The notes beneath the pieces are model-generated. The model searched no databases and had not been told where the DNA came from. It worked only from the letters and a program-made list of their open reading frames with translations. A stretch of 64,000 nucleotides of DNA, taken from the NCBI GenBank assembly GCA_009746045.1, contig RPFO01000034.1:1899146-1963145 (forward strand). The letters run 5' to 3'. A program made the translations under genes and the position numbers. The stretch is from Mesostigma viride. Lineage: Eukaryota; Streptophyta; Mesostigmatophyceae; Mesostigmatales; Mesostigmataceae. This document shows, one piece after another, positions 32,310-61,100 of the stretch (position 1 is its first letter; every line of letters begins with the position of its first letter).

Positions 32310-35300
32310 ATGGAAGAGGACCGGTCCAATCCGAACTTTGATAGAATGGCGGAAGACATGCCGCAGGCGCGGGGAAGCTCCGACTCACTGAATGAAGCAA
32401 TCCAATCTAAGTTTTACACCTTCCTAGAAGAGTAAGTTTCTAGCCAACAGACAAGCCTTCGTGCTGTCTGCCATCGCTCCCCTGTCCACGTAACACCTGC
32501 TCTAACCGCCTGATGAGCTACTGATTCATCATATCTTATACAAACGCAAACGTGACTGGAATTTCGGGAAACCTTAATGCTACAATCTTGCCCGTGCACA
32601 CCACCTGCGCTGGTCTAACTCTTGGATGTAAACGTGAGGCATATTTCCGCGCATTGCAGGTTTGAGGATGGAACAGCTGAGAGAGACAGCAGCAGTCATG
32701 CGCCGGTGGAGGGGGAGGGAAAGCCGTACGTCGCCCTGGTCATGCAAATGGGCGTCAACGACACGTCGACGTTGGTGGTCAACTTCCAGCACCTGCAGGC
32801 GTTTGACAGCGACGCGGCTAACGCGATCAAGCTCAATTACTACCGGTACGCATTCGTGCTCTCTTCTCTTTCCCGCAAGCCTGCGAGCTGATAACTGCCA
32901 TGATCGTTTACGGCAGCTCGACATGGACGTACTATGCCGCGAATTCTCGTACCCTAACTTGGCGTCAGCAGGGCACGAAGACATGAGTATTTCGATAGTA
33001 GAAGAACGCGGTCGGGCTTTGAATCAACCTGGGTCTCGTTCCCAGGGCAATGTTTTGCCAGGTTATTCGGCATTATTTTTGTTAATGGCTACGATGGTCG
33101 CCACAGGGGGGCACAACGCCGTGACGGTCGGGATCCGGCGCAGTGGCCAGCACGTGAGCAAGTCAAAGTCTTCATAGCCTGTTATATTGCCCAGGGGAAT
33201 CGGATGGTGGGACAGACTGGCATTGTGGGCCGAGCGGGGCATTGGGGACAAAGCATTGCGGCGGAAGTGTCTCCTAGTGCAGTAGTGTGGAAAACCCGAT
33301 CTATTTCGTTATGGTGCAGTCTCTCTGGTTCTGGAACTTTGCTGGACAGCTGCTTTGCATAGGAGGGTGGCATGGCTGGGGAATGAAATCCTTGTTCCTT
33401 GTTGGTTCCACAGGCATTGCTCCCTGTGGGAACACTAGAGTGACCCCATGACAATAGTTAAGTGACCTAGCCTTGTGGCGCTTGTGTGACCACACTTAGA
33501 CCCTCATGCGGATGCCGTTGGATTGTAGTGACTGCAATCCAGTCACCGCATCTAGGGTACCGGCTTTTCTCGCCTTGTTTCGCTAGCTGCCTCATGCTGA
33601 ATTGTTGCTGCCAAGCCGCTTTCCACTTAACACCTCACGCCCATTTCTGCCCCATTCTCCTCGGCTTGCGGTTGCGTCTTTTTTTTTGTGTGTGTGTACA
33701 TGCTCCTCTTTGTGTGTGTGCCCCATCCCCAGCTTTGAGCCTTGGTTGCGCAAGGCAGTGCAAGAGTTTGCCGTGAGGCATGTGGGCCAGGACGCTGCCA
33801 TGCATGAGGGCAAGCCGAAGGAGTACTACGTCAGCTTCTTTAACCTGCCCGACGTGCCCTGCAAGTAAGCTTCTTTAACCTGCCCCATATTCCTTTGCAA
33901 GTCAGCTTCTTTAACCTGGCCAACACACCCTGCGAGTGAGCAGCCTAACCAAGAGCCTCACAGTATTTTGATGGGCATCCACTTATGGTTTGGGGAATCT
34001 TGATTCCGTGTATATATTTCCTTTCTAGGGATGTGAATAGGGTTCAAGGGGTCTTGGGTAGTTTGTTTGTGCCCTTCGGCCTTATCGGACTCTGGGTGGC
34101 AGCATGCGTCACTATAAGTAGTTGTAATTTATAGGCCATCCCCTGCCGCCAACTTACCAGCTGACATACCCATTTTTCGCTTTCCTCTCCCCTCTGTTTT
34201 CCCATTTGGTTTTGTGCTTGGATTTCCTAATAATTTTCCTTTTCGTTTCTTATTTGGTGTCTCACCGGGTGCCGCCCATCTAATCGAATGGTTTTCGTCT
34301 CCCATCTAATCTCCTCATCCGTTTTCCCCTTTATGCCCCTTCCCCTGCCCCTTCCTCTCGGGTGCCTTGTCCTGCTTCCCCCCCACTCAGGCTGCGCGAC
34401 CTGCGCACGAGCAAGCTGGGCGCGCTCGTGTCCGTCTCGGGCACCATCACACGCACGTCCGAAGTGAGGCCCGAGCTGCTGTACGGCACCTTCCGGTGCA
34501 TGGACTGCGGCAACAAGGTGGGTCCTCCGCTGGGTGGCAGCGAGGTGGCATCTTGGCTAGGTTCGAGCAAGGTGGGCCCCTGTATCACCTCGCAAGGCTT
34601 GCACTACGATCTTGTACTGGGCTGGGTGGCGACTAGGTGGGTTACCGCCAAGGTGGGCCTGACAAATATGAATGGTATGTTGAGAATAATTAATAGCATG
34701 CCAAATATATAACAGTTTCTTTTCAGTTTATATCAACATGATTAAATGATTTCCAACGCCTTGATCATGGTGCGTGCCTGTGTCCTGCCTCTACCATGTC
34801 CGTGCTCATCCCCCCTTAACCACTCGTTCCTTCTGCGCCTCTCCCCATACCTTCCCCTTTATTTCCCCCCCCCCCCCCCCCCCCCCCCCGCATACTGATT
34901 CCTCTACATGCCCGTGCCCCTCCCTCTCCCGCACTCCCCCCAGGCCACCAACGTGGAACAACAGTTCCAGTATACACAGCCGACGCTGTGCAAGAATGCG
35001 ACGTGCACCAACCGCGAGCGGTGGCAGTTGATCCGCGAGGAGTCCATCTTCGTCGACTGGCAGCGCGTGCGCATGCAGGTGGGTGGACAGCGGGACAATG
35101 GTGAACAAGTGCAGGTACCTGAACACCGGGAGAAACGTGAACAAGTGCGGGTGGGTAGACACCGGAGAATACCGACTTGCCGGATGGTGACCCGGCCATG
35201 TGGCTTTTGGAGAACCAGGCAGCCAAGGAGGAACGTTGGGGGGTGGGCGGTCGGTGGGTGGGGGTGGGTGGGGGATTGTGTGGTCGGGAGCAGTCTGCTC

Positions 35301-58100: not shown

Positions 58101-61100
58101 GAGGCTCACCCTGCGTGTTTTTCTCTTTCATACTCTATACCTCATCAAGCGAGGTTACCCTGCGTGTTTTTCTCTTTTGCAGGAGCCAACGGGCGGTTGA
58201 CATCTTCAAGGACAAGGCACGAGTGAGTGGGCAAAGTCGCATATAAAGAAGTCAGTGTTTTGTTTTTCAACTACCCAAGCAGGGCATTTTGCACTATATC
58301 ATGTATTTTTGCTTGGGAAAATGATTGCACCTTTTTTCATTTGGTCGGACAGAAATGCGCGGCAGTAAAGCAGACAACTTGCTTGTAGTAGGCAAAAATT
58401 AGTGCGCACTGATGCAAGAATGCTTGTGGGCTTGCATGGGACGGCTTCGGCACCTGCCTCCATCATTCTGCCTGCTGTGCCTGGTGCAGGGTAGCGTAGA
58501 ACCAACCTGCAGCACCGTACACCCTTCACCCTTCACCCTTCACCCTTCACCCTTCACCCTTCACCCTTCACCCTTCACCCTTCACCCTTCACCCTTCACC
58601 CTTCACCCTTCACCCTTCACCCTTCACCCTTCACCCTTCACCCTTCACCCTTCACCCTTCACCCTTCACCCTTCACCCTTCACCCTTCACCCTTCACCCT
58701 TCACCCTTCACCCTTCACCCTTCACCCTTCACCCTTCACCCTTCACCCTTCACCCTTCACCCTTCACCCTTCGCCCTTCGCCCTTCGCCCTTCGCCCTTC
58801 GCCCTTCGCCCTTCGCCCTTCGCCCTTCGCCCTTCGCCCTTCGCCCTTCGCCCTTCGCCCTTCGCCCTTCGCCCTTCGCCCTTCGCCCTTCGCCCTTCGC
58901 CCTTCGCCCTTCGCCCTTCGCCCTTCGCCCGTCGCCCTTCGCCCTTCGCCCTTCGCCCTTCGCCCTTCACCCTTCACCCTTCACCCTTCACCCTTCACCC
59001 TTCACCCTTCACCCTTCACCCTTCACCCTTCACCCTTCACCCTGTATTATGGAATGTCCCGATTGATATAGGTACGCATGGCATGGGCGTTGAAGAGAAT
59101 TCACAGCAATGAAATGGCAAGGAGGCAAGGAGCAAAAAAGAGATCAGTTGTGCCTGGTAGGGTCTGACCTGTCAAGGAACCACCTGCCCCCCAACCGGCC
59201 CCCTTTCCCCCCCCCCCCTGCCCCGGTCTTGCCTCTAATCCATCTCATACTGCAGCTCCCGCATACGGCCGCATGCAAGTTCATGTATGCGTCGCTCCCA
59301 TGGAATGCCTCATCATCATTCGCTAGGGCTTCAACAGATGCCACGCACTGGCTGTGCTAATTACAGGTCGAGCTCAACAAAAGACGTGCTGTGATTGCAT
59401 GACGCGCTGTGCTGCCTTGCTGACGAGTCAGGTGGAGCTCGGCGCGTTCGTCGACATCGCGCTGGGGCCCCTGGGTGGCACCCTGGAGCCGGGCGTGATT
59501 GTGGCGCCGCATGGGCTGGAGGCGACGATGACGACGAGCCGCTCGCTGGGGCTGTTTGCAGGTGTGGGACCTGAATAGGGTTGTTCCCTAGGAAATAGGA
59601 AAATTGATTATGACAACCAGCCGCTCCTTGGGGCTTTCCCCAGGTTGGGGACTTGGACACTAGTGCCTGGAATAATAATTCTCAATGTATTTTAGTATGT
59701 GTGTTTCACGGGCATTCTGTGGTGGCGCAGGCCATGGTGAGATCATAATAGAATCGATTTGTACACGACAACCCCCACTGGAGTAAACTGCTGCGAGCAT
59801 GCAGCACTTAATTCTCAGGGATCATCCCTCCATGAATATTTGTCATGTCGTGCAATCTGCCATGCAGTCTCGTGCATGATATGCCGCGTGAGCTACTGCA
59901 TCGTAGGGCCGGTCTCAGTACACATGCTCTCTGTACTCACTGATGGCTAGTTTTCCATTTTCTCTTGCCTTAATGTCATATGTCTACGGTGGTGGCTATC
60001 TCCTAATCGCAGGTCTTGTTCTCGTACCCAATTCATGAATTTCTGGCTTTTGCCTCATGCATTGTTGTGGTAGTCGTCATTATTTGTTACTATGGCGCAC
60101 CTCAGTGCGAAATTGTTGAGGGGAAACGAAATGTTTGGCTTCTATGCAGCGTGATACCCTTTACACCTGCTGCCTGTCACTGCGATGATCAATAAGCGCA
60201 ATCCCGTATCACTGTGCATAGGTCGTGATTGATTTATCATTTAGTTATATTATTTTACTGTTTGTTTTATGTGACTTGCCTTAATCGAATATTCTATGCA
60301 GGCGTGGGCGTGTTCGGCACACTTGTCACCTTCAACCCACTCATGAACGACCGCTTCTTTGTGCACGAGGTGTCGGTGCGCGGCGTGCTGAGCGGGCGGC
60401 AAGGGCTGGAGGCCTGGCGCTACCATGCGGAGCTGCAGCAGCTCTATCAGGCGCTCGACCGTGCAACGTTAGCGGGTCCAAAGGGTGCGTTGATGGGGAT
60501 CAGTGGCATGATTTGCATTCTTCTCGTAATAGTCTATTTTACCTATCGTATCTGTTGCTTTTAATGTGAATCACTTTCTGCGATCTATTAAGCTATGAAA
60601 ACTTCCCCGATCTGGCTTTGCTTTTTTGATACATAAGACATGGCAGCAAGCAGGGCTGTCCGTTGCATTGCATTAAATGCACCATCGGGACCATGACTTG
60701 CATGGTTGTGTGTGGTAGCAGTAGTCTGTCCCCATGAGCATCTTCTAACAAGTTTATTGCCAAGTCCTGTAGACATCTGTTTTGTGTTTCATTTCCATGT
60801 GCTGATGTACGACTGCATGAGACTCTGCCCTGTCCAGTCGCCTGTCCAAACTGCATGAGACACCGCCCCTGACCAGTGGCCTCGCTTCAAATGAACCTTG
60901 CGATCAATCACTATCAAGGAGACAACCAGCGCAGGCCAGAAATCGGGAGAATCCGGACCATGGTAGCTCGAGCCTGCCGTTATCTTGTCCGCGTGTTCGA
61001 GTCGTTCAGGATGATGAATATGAATGGTGATGGAAATGTGTAGCCTTGTGCATCGAAATTATGGCTGGCTTACGTGTAGAGCGACTAGATGACCTAGACG

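Follow-up and report, generated by a model that had tools for sequence, protein, structure and literature searches.

Recurrent short duplications spanning splice donors as a probable source of intron growth and decoy donors

Introns in the 64,000-nucleotide stretch analysed here (the window; C1413:1899146-1963145 of a eukaryotic assembly that totals 440 Mb in 2243 contigs) carry extra copies, here termed echoes, of the adjoining exon end together with its splice donor, most of them in an MCM6-like gene. Echoes are local and often tandem, and some are nearly identical to the original. Across 75 introns, 25 from the window and 50 from an independent sample of conserved genes, echoes occur at 23 donors compared to 6.6 expected (P printed as 0.00000 from 100,000 simulations). 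We consider it probable that introns here lengthen through recurrent short local duplication, seen mainly across the donor, and that decoy donors arise in the process.

The window introns come from four gene models, MCM6, SYLF/Ysc84, bZIP and a partial DUF6544 model that contributes only its last intron, on the minus strand. Hand-spliced models of MCM6 (16 exons), SYLF/Ysc84 (8) and bZIP (3) have an open frame throughout, and Pfam backs all four genes, with the first 708 residues of MCM6 and parts of bZIP and DUF6544 as queries. MCM_N, MCM_OB, MCM and MCM_lid were found within MCM6 residues 1–708. Solved MCM6 proteins align with residues 63–698, and because this alignment runs across the joins of introns 2–13, the upstream-most donor of those introns yields the conserved protein; reading frame is the sole support for introns 1, 14 and 15. 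The host genes and their echoes, in window coordinates, are as follows.

32310..44382, plus strand: MCM6-like gene with 16 exons, in which most echoes lie (spliced open frame, Pfam, solved-MCM6 alignment)
33830..33941, plus strand: MCM6 intron 3, exon 3 edge and donor in about 3.2 copies of a 35–36-bp unit, the first copy exonic (repeat array, own-intron match)
35074..35169, plus strand: MCM6 intron 5, donor repeated in 2.7 copies of a 36-bp unit (array and junction-spanning test)
38303..38441, plus strand: MCM6 intron 9, exon 9 edge and donor echoed twice, at 38303–38325 and 38420–38441 (own-intron match)
39095..39451, plus strand: MCM6 intron 10, exon 10 edge and donor echoed seven times (alignment, array, sequence)
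39851..40030, plus strand: MCM6 intron 11, 44-bp tandem donor copy at 39895–39939 and a second exon-tail echo at 40013–40030 (array, own-intron match)
40426..40804, plus strand: MCM6 intron 11, echoes of acceptor type ahead of exon 12 (junction test)
43819..43844, plus strand: MCM6 intron 15, weak echo of the exon 15 edge (score 27), donor GT lost (own-intron match)
44080..44117, plus strand: echo of the acceptor and start of MCM6 exon 16, 84 bp upstream of the real acceptor (own-intron match, junction test)
52079..62134, plus strand: SYLF/Ysc84-like gene, 8 exons (spliced open frame; PF04366)
55112..55134, plus strand: SYLF gene, exon 2 acceptor echoed 168 bp before the real acceptor (junction test)
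57791..57815, plus strand: SYLF intron 4, echo of the exon 4 edge and donor (own-intron match)
58040..58177, plus strand: SYLF intron 4, pyrimidine-rich 50-bp array, intron only, ending 5 nt before the acceptor (repeat array)
59610..59655, plus strand: SYLF intron 6, echo of the exon 6 edge and donor (own-intron match)
26449..26497, minus strand: DUF6544-like gene, echo of exon edge and donor, junction between 26648 and 26647 (junction test; PF20181)
2346..6996, plus strand: bZIP gene, exon 1 edge weakly echoed in intron 1 near 4440 (spliced open frame; Pfam)

The echo coordinates listed in a first-pass annotation of this DNA hold on re-alignment, with corrections: its threefold SYLF acceptor echo is the intron-only 50-bp array, its intron 15 echo is weak, and the exons that it numbered 3 and 5 in SYLF, whose echoes are real, correspond to exons 4 and 6. 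Echoes in MCM6 intron 5 and, weakly, bZIP intron 1 and at the acceptors of MCM6 exon 12 and SYLF exon 2 are additions to that list. Six of the seven copies in MCM6 intron 10 come from the alignment list and the last from the array and sequence; the five final copies make up an array of 46-bp units with 97% matches. The echo donors at +36 and +72 in MCM6 intron 5 are in frame without a stop, and MCM6 would gain 28 residues from an open, in-frame segment (84 nt; window 44089–44172) if the echo acceptor of exon 16 were used. Further decayed edge copies were seen by eye in the DUF6544-like gene.

Exon ends in the window match their own introns specifically. At 7 of 24 donors (MCM6 introns 3, 9, 10, 11 and 15; SYLF introns 4 and 6) the last 40 exon nucleotides fit their own intron better than 23 others and better than 100 of 100 shuffles; the acceptor-side equivalent, with the first 40 nt of the next exon, was positive once in 24, at exon 16. 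A strict ungapped junction-crossing test gave 7/25 donors against 2.2 expected from interior points of the same introns (P 0.0009) and 3/25 acceptors against 2.4 expected (P 0.43), and the donor test was positive for 1/25 reversed introns and 0/25 reverse complements. Chance as the source of the window echoes is ruled out by the shuffles and by the other-intron and reversed controls. Copying of exon interiors into introns was also rejected, with only 0–1 of 17–21 exon segments at least 30 nt from the donor end positive. The local-duplication profile along the window introns has its maximum around the donor and no such peak at the acceptor.

The independent sample consists of 50 introns between neighbouring exons of three unrelated conserved families, MCM paralogues, TCP-1 chaperonins and kinesins, located through Pfam hits in the rest of the genome. 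GT-AG pairs were picked by script from reading frame, distance to the Pfam hit and splice-site weights. A splice-score cut of 8 was used for the TCP-1 and kinesin sets and not for the MCM set; L161 intron 6, L165 intron 2 and L177 intron 2 were removed before counting for scores below 8, and L171 intron 2, which has no echo, was left out as a haplotype duplicate of L170. The model of L178 intron 1 is uncertain (7 extra codons). Fifteen kinesin pairs were fetched and 14 scored, out of about 36 counted by eye, and about five tRNA-synthetase pairs stayed outside the sample.

Donors are echoed well above expectation in the chaperonins (7/22 versus 0.86) and kinesins (5/14 versus 1.1), for which acceptor counts are 1/22 versus 0.89 and 0/14 versus 1.2, respectively. 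The 50 new introns pooled give 16 echoed donors versus 4.3 expected and 6 echoed acceptors versus 4.4, so that the suspicion raised from three window genes, that the pattern extends across the genome, is supported in this sample of conserved genes. A version of the own-versus-other-intron comparison that had been proposed beforehand as a potential refutation agrees: the own intron fits better at p<0.01 for 16/50 exon tails, and the claim survives. The first-pass annotation also treated acceptors as echoed. Over all 75 introns they are near background (9 versus 6.7, P 0.18); when array-rich introns are dropped, acceptors rise above it (8/67 versus 2.6, P 0.003), with donors at 20/67 versus 2.4.

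Echo anatomy is informative about how copies arise. Gapped alignment places echoes at 22/75 donors, with 1–5 copies each, an exon part of 5–50 nt (median 23) and a spacing from the original of 44–362 bp (median 86); a uniform breakpoint would give such short exon parts with P ~2e-7. The leftmost copy begins in the last 40 exon nucleotides 21 times, whereas intron interiors predict 3.4 (P=1e-10); per unit length, duplication starts are thus about six times as frequent there as within introns. Starts are scarce on both sides of this interval, with 1 in 402 bin-exposures at exon positions -200 to -40 (about 9 expected) and 2 in 150 bin-exposures in the first 40 intron nucleotides. These start-position and anatomy counts rule out simple decay asymmetry as a full account. 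Near-identical cases also occur. In L168 intron 2 a 76-bp unit whose first 20 nt are exonic is present in four nearly identical copies, counting the original. A copy of 70 bp in L176 intron 2 is likewise near-identical, and in L180 intron 2 the original is accompanied by three copies that are close in the exon part and gapped in the intron part.

The process that we favour would run as follows. Short local duplications would recur, tandem where still recognisable, with present copies about 40–360 bp apart (median 86). The duplicated block would have its left end in the last ~50 exon nucleotides and its remainder in the intron, so that the donor is preferentially spanned. If splicing keeps the outermost original donor, as protein conservation suggests, the duplicate would be spliced out and free to drift, which would leave an exon-edge echo and a decoy donor, and repeated rounds could produce arrays and a longer intron. 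Slippage or end-joining at the DNA level would be a plausible cause and growth the plausible direction of change; both are inferred, as is any reason for the donor bias. The first-pass annotation proposed that introns grow by duplication anchored on splice junctions. Junction-spanning duplication and decoy donors stand; mechanistic anchoring fits the excess, which could also reflect preferential retention or visibility.

Several results weigh against recurrent donor-spanning duplication in this form. A plain neutral model expects starts at all exon depths and just inside the intron, and both are missing; because they are missing, something beyond neutral tolerance is needed. The MCM paralogues alone have more acceptor echoes (5/15 versus 2.3, P 0.01) than donor echoes, with a donor excess that is not significant (4/15 versus 2.4, P 0.10), and these acceptors weakened an early donor-only reading. 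L159 intron 1, positive for both donor and acceptor, was kept despite a splice score of 5.8 (below 8); its exclusion changes the independent-sample counts to 15/49 donors and 5/49 acceptors. Acceptor starts number 9 versus 4.1 (P 0.03), an excess that a doubled expectation of 8.3 removes. A looser block test in the window gave 14/25 versus about 6, a figure inflated by local composition (its reversed control also gave 6/25) and given no weight here, and an intron-only test beside the donor was weaker (10–11/25 versus 5.5–6.5, P 0.004–0.06). Tandem origin is read from spacing; in old copies the borders of the unit are no longer clean, and for some echoes the distance to the original is 160–360 bp.

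Haplotype-like sequences bear on timing. L170 (C1641:59001-69000) and L171 (C887:341001-351000) are about 97% identical across ~5.8 kb, with ~2% substitutions, and one intron differs by a ~3.1-kb insertion and a 43-bp tandem duplication. Tandem duplication appears to be ongoing because this 43-bp duplication separates the two haplotypes; it is also a further point against donor-spanning duplication, since this one clear polymorphic duplication of tens of bases, among six indels of at least 6 bp, falls within the intron and away from any junction. L172–L175 were considered as matching haplotypes, turned out otherwise and were not used. C2 and C622 seem, from hit positions alone, to form a second haplotype-like pair.

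The donor excess could arise from ascertainment alone if duplications were uniform, exonic ones were purged, and those touching junctions stayed visible longer through the conserved exon template, an explanation that we regard as unlikely. It draws on the many local repeats that lie in introns away from junctions, on their rarity in exons and on acceptors being near background. Within the window introns, 12.6% of positions fall in local repeats (5.0% once three array introns are set aside), compared to 1.9% between genes and 1.3% in exons; the exon set was in part an approximation, with MCM6 exon 14 entered twice. Doubling the expectation to allow for a conserved exon template nevertheless leaves 21 donor starts versus 6.8 (P=1e-5), and starts just inside the intron, as counted above, are not elevated. 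Near-identical arrays are likewise found at donors, and exon and intron parts of echoes are similarly diverged (86.4% versus 87.2% identity, a comparison blurred by trimmed alignments). A different and similarly doubtful proposal is that a splicing- or transcription-coupled process at the donor (for instance an R-loop, a stalled spliceosome or RNA-templated repair) copies a junction-centred piece with at most 50 exon nucleotides into the intron. Introns would then expand outward from the splice sites that bound them, with the copied donors kept as decoys. Neither the shortness of the exon part nor the rarity of starts just inside the intron is predicted by plain tolerance, which leaves room for a junction-anchored cause. 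On the coding strand, window introns have on average (over 25 introns) a G-rich 5' part and a C/T-rich 3' part, a composition that would suit R-loop-linked slippage.

Selection could instead maintain downstream donor copies as functional decoys, which might offer U1 additional binding sites, for instance, or serve unproductive splicing in a regulated way; this we judge quite improbable. Donor-motif columns of echoes are better preserved than the rest (124/130 identical versus 598/705 elsewhere); neutral simulation under an identical detection rule yields so large a gap with P=0.0024, although only 22 alignments contribute and the simulation depends on assumed divergence settings. Donor-like sites in the first 200 bases of window introns number 16 versus 8.0 in shuffles, and introns without a detected echo have no such excess in the window (2 versus 2.4). 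The claim that copies keep GT at the equivalent position is true of the best copy at 20/22 donors and fails in L159 introns 1 and 3. The loss of GT in MCM6 intron 15 and in bZIP intron 1 near 4440 speaks against function, as does the stop codon that use of the echo donor would introduce at 9 of the 11 GT echo donors checked (a twelfth offset had GG). Taken on motif preservation, there are hints that some echo donors may be used or maintained. Far less probable, and disfavoured here, is that echoes are remnants of intron birth through tandem duplication of an exonic AGGT (the Rogers/Hellsten model) or mobile introner elements. Tandem duplication that copies splice signals is a general process common to both that model and the present data (PMC3443670). 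The model, however, places the exon-tail copy at the 3' end of the intron, a signature seen at none of the 22 echo-bearing donors, where the best copy lies 44–362 bp from the original in all 22. As regards introner elements, none of 23 other introns matched seven of the window donors as well as their own intron did. A genome search with MCM6 exon 10, intron 10 and exon 11 (window 38828–39860) returned its own locus and seven exon 10 hits at MCM paralogues; very common words were skipped, so rarity is unproven and a dispersed element may have been missed.

Lengthening of introns is usually attributed to transposons and random insertion. Intronic minisatellites are head-to-tail arrays with units of tens of bases, and head-to-tail copies of a single unit, a minisatellite-like property, are present in MCM6 introns 3, 5, 10 and 11 and in introns of L168 and L176; echoes differ in that the unit begins inside the exon, carries the donor and occurs at a rate above the intron background. 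Published processes overlap with this pattern in part. AGGT intron gain (Rogers/Hellsten model; Hellsten 2011) also involves tandem duplication of a segment with splice signals that splicing renders silent (PMC3443670, PMC4974935), but there an exonic AGGT segment makes a new intron, whereas here existing introns hold extra copies near the donor. Novel intron positions in Drosophila, explained by sliding or tandem duplication, likewise involve cryptic splice sites, short duplications close to splice sites and premature stops in duplicates; 5/31 were ascribed to tandem duplication, and the outcome is a new intron position, whereas about 30% of donors sampled here have echoes with the exon end unchanged (PMC2891723). 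In potato RdRp a tandem duplication across an intron–exon boundary also passed on splice signals, but this is a single case on the acceptor side that made a new intron (PMC4974935). Close published cases are single new introns or shifted positions (PMC3443670, PMC2891723, PMC4974935, PMC3488318), and no description of donor-spanning echoes across a genome was found among the titles and abstract openings listed, in a literature collection that omits most subscription journals. If about one third of donors in one genome copy their own junction, splice sites would feed intron growth and continually create competing donors; intron size, splicing error and alternative splicing would then be joined in one testable process, with the sharp limit on exon reach of the copies as a clue to its mechanism.

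Other searches and features of the sequence are more peripheral. Scans for MCM in viral and prokaryote collections gave 46 loci and 79 loci (kept of 382), all with viral or prokaryotic titles, and no eukaryote for comparison; a word taken from one of the window's repeats was not matched exactly in any viral or prokaryote contig, and an Rfam search gave no match at gathering scores. A 1.49-Mb contig, G000:C2011, has MCM, Cpn60/TCP-1 and tRNA synthetase hits that all lie in long open frames and is probably a bacterial contig within the same assembly. Within SYLF intron 5, window 58520–59043 holds about 75 copies of CACCCTT, and window 11840–14843, about 3 kb, is taken up by arrays of the tetranucleotides CACC and CCCT. 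By eye, window 45240–47300 and several dispersed fragments contain remnants that resemble reverse transcriptase, together with a dispersed repeat found repeatedly along the window.

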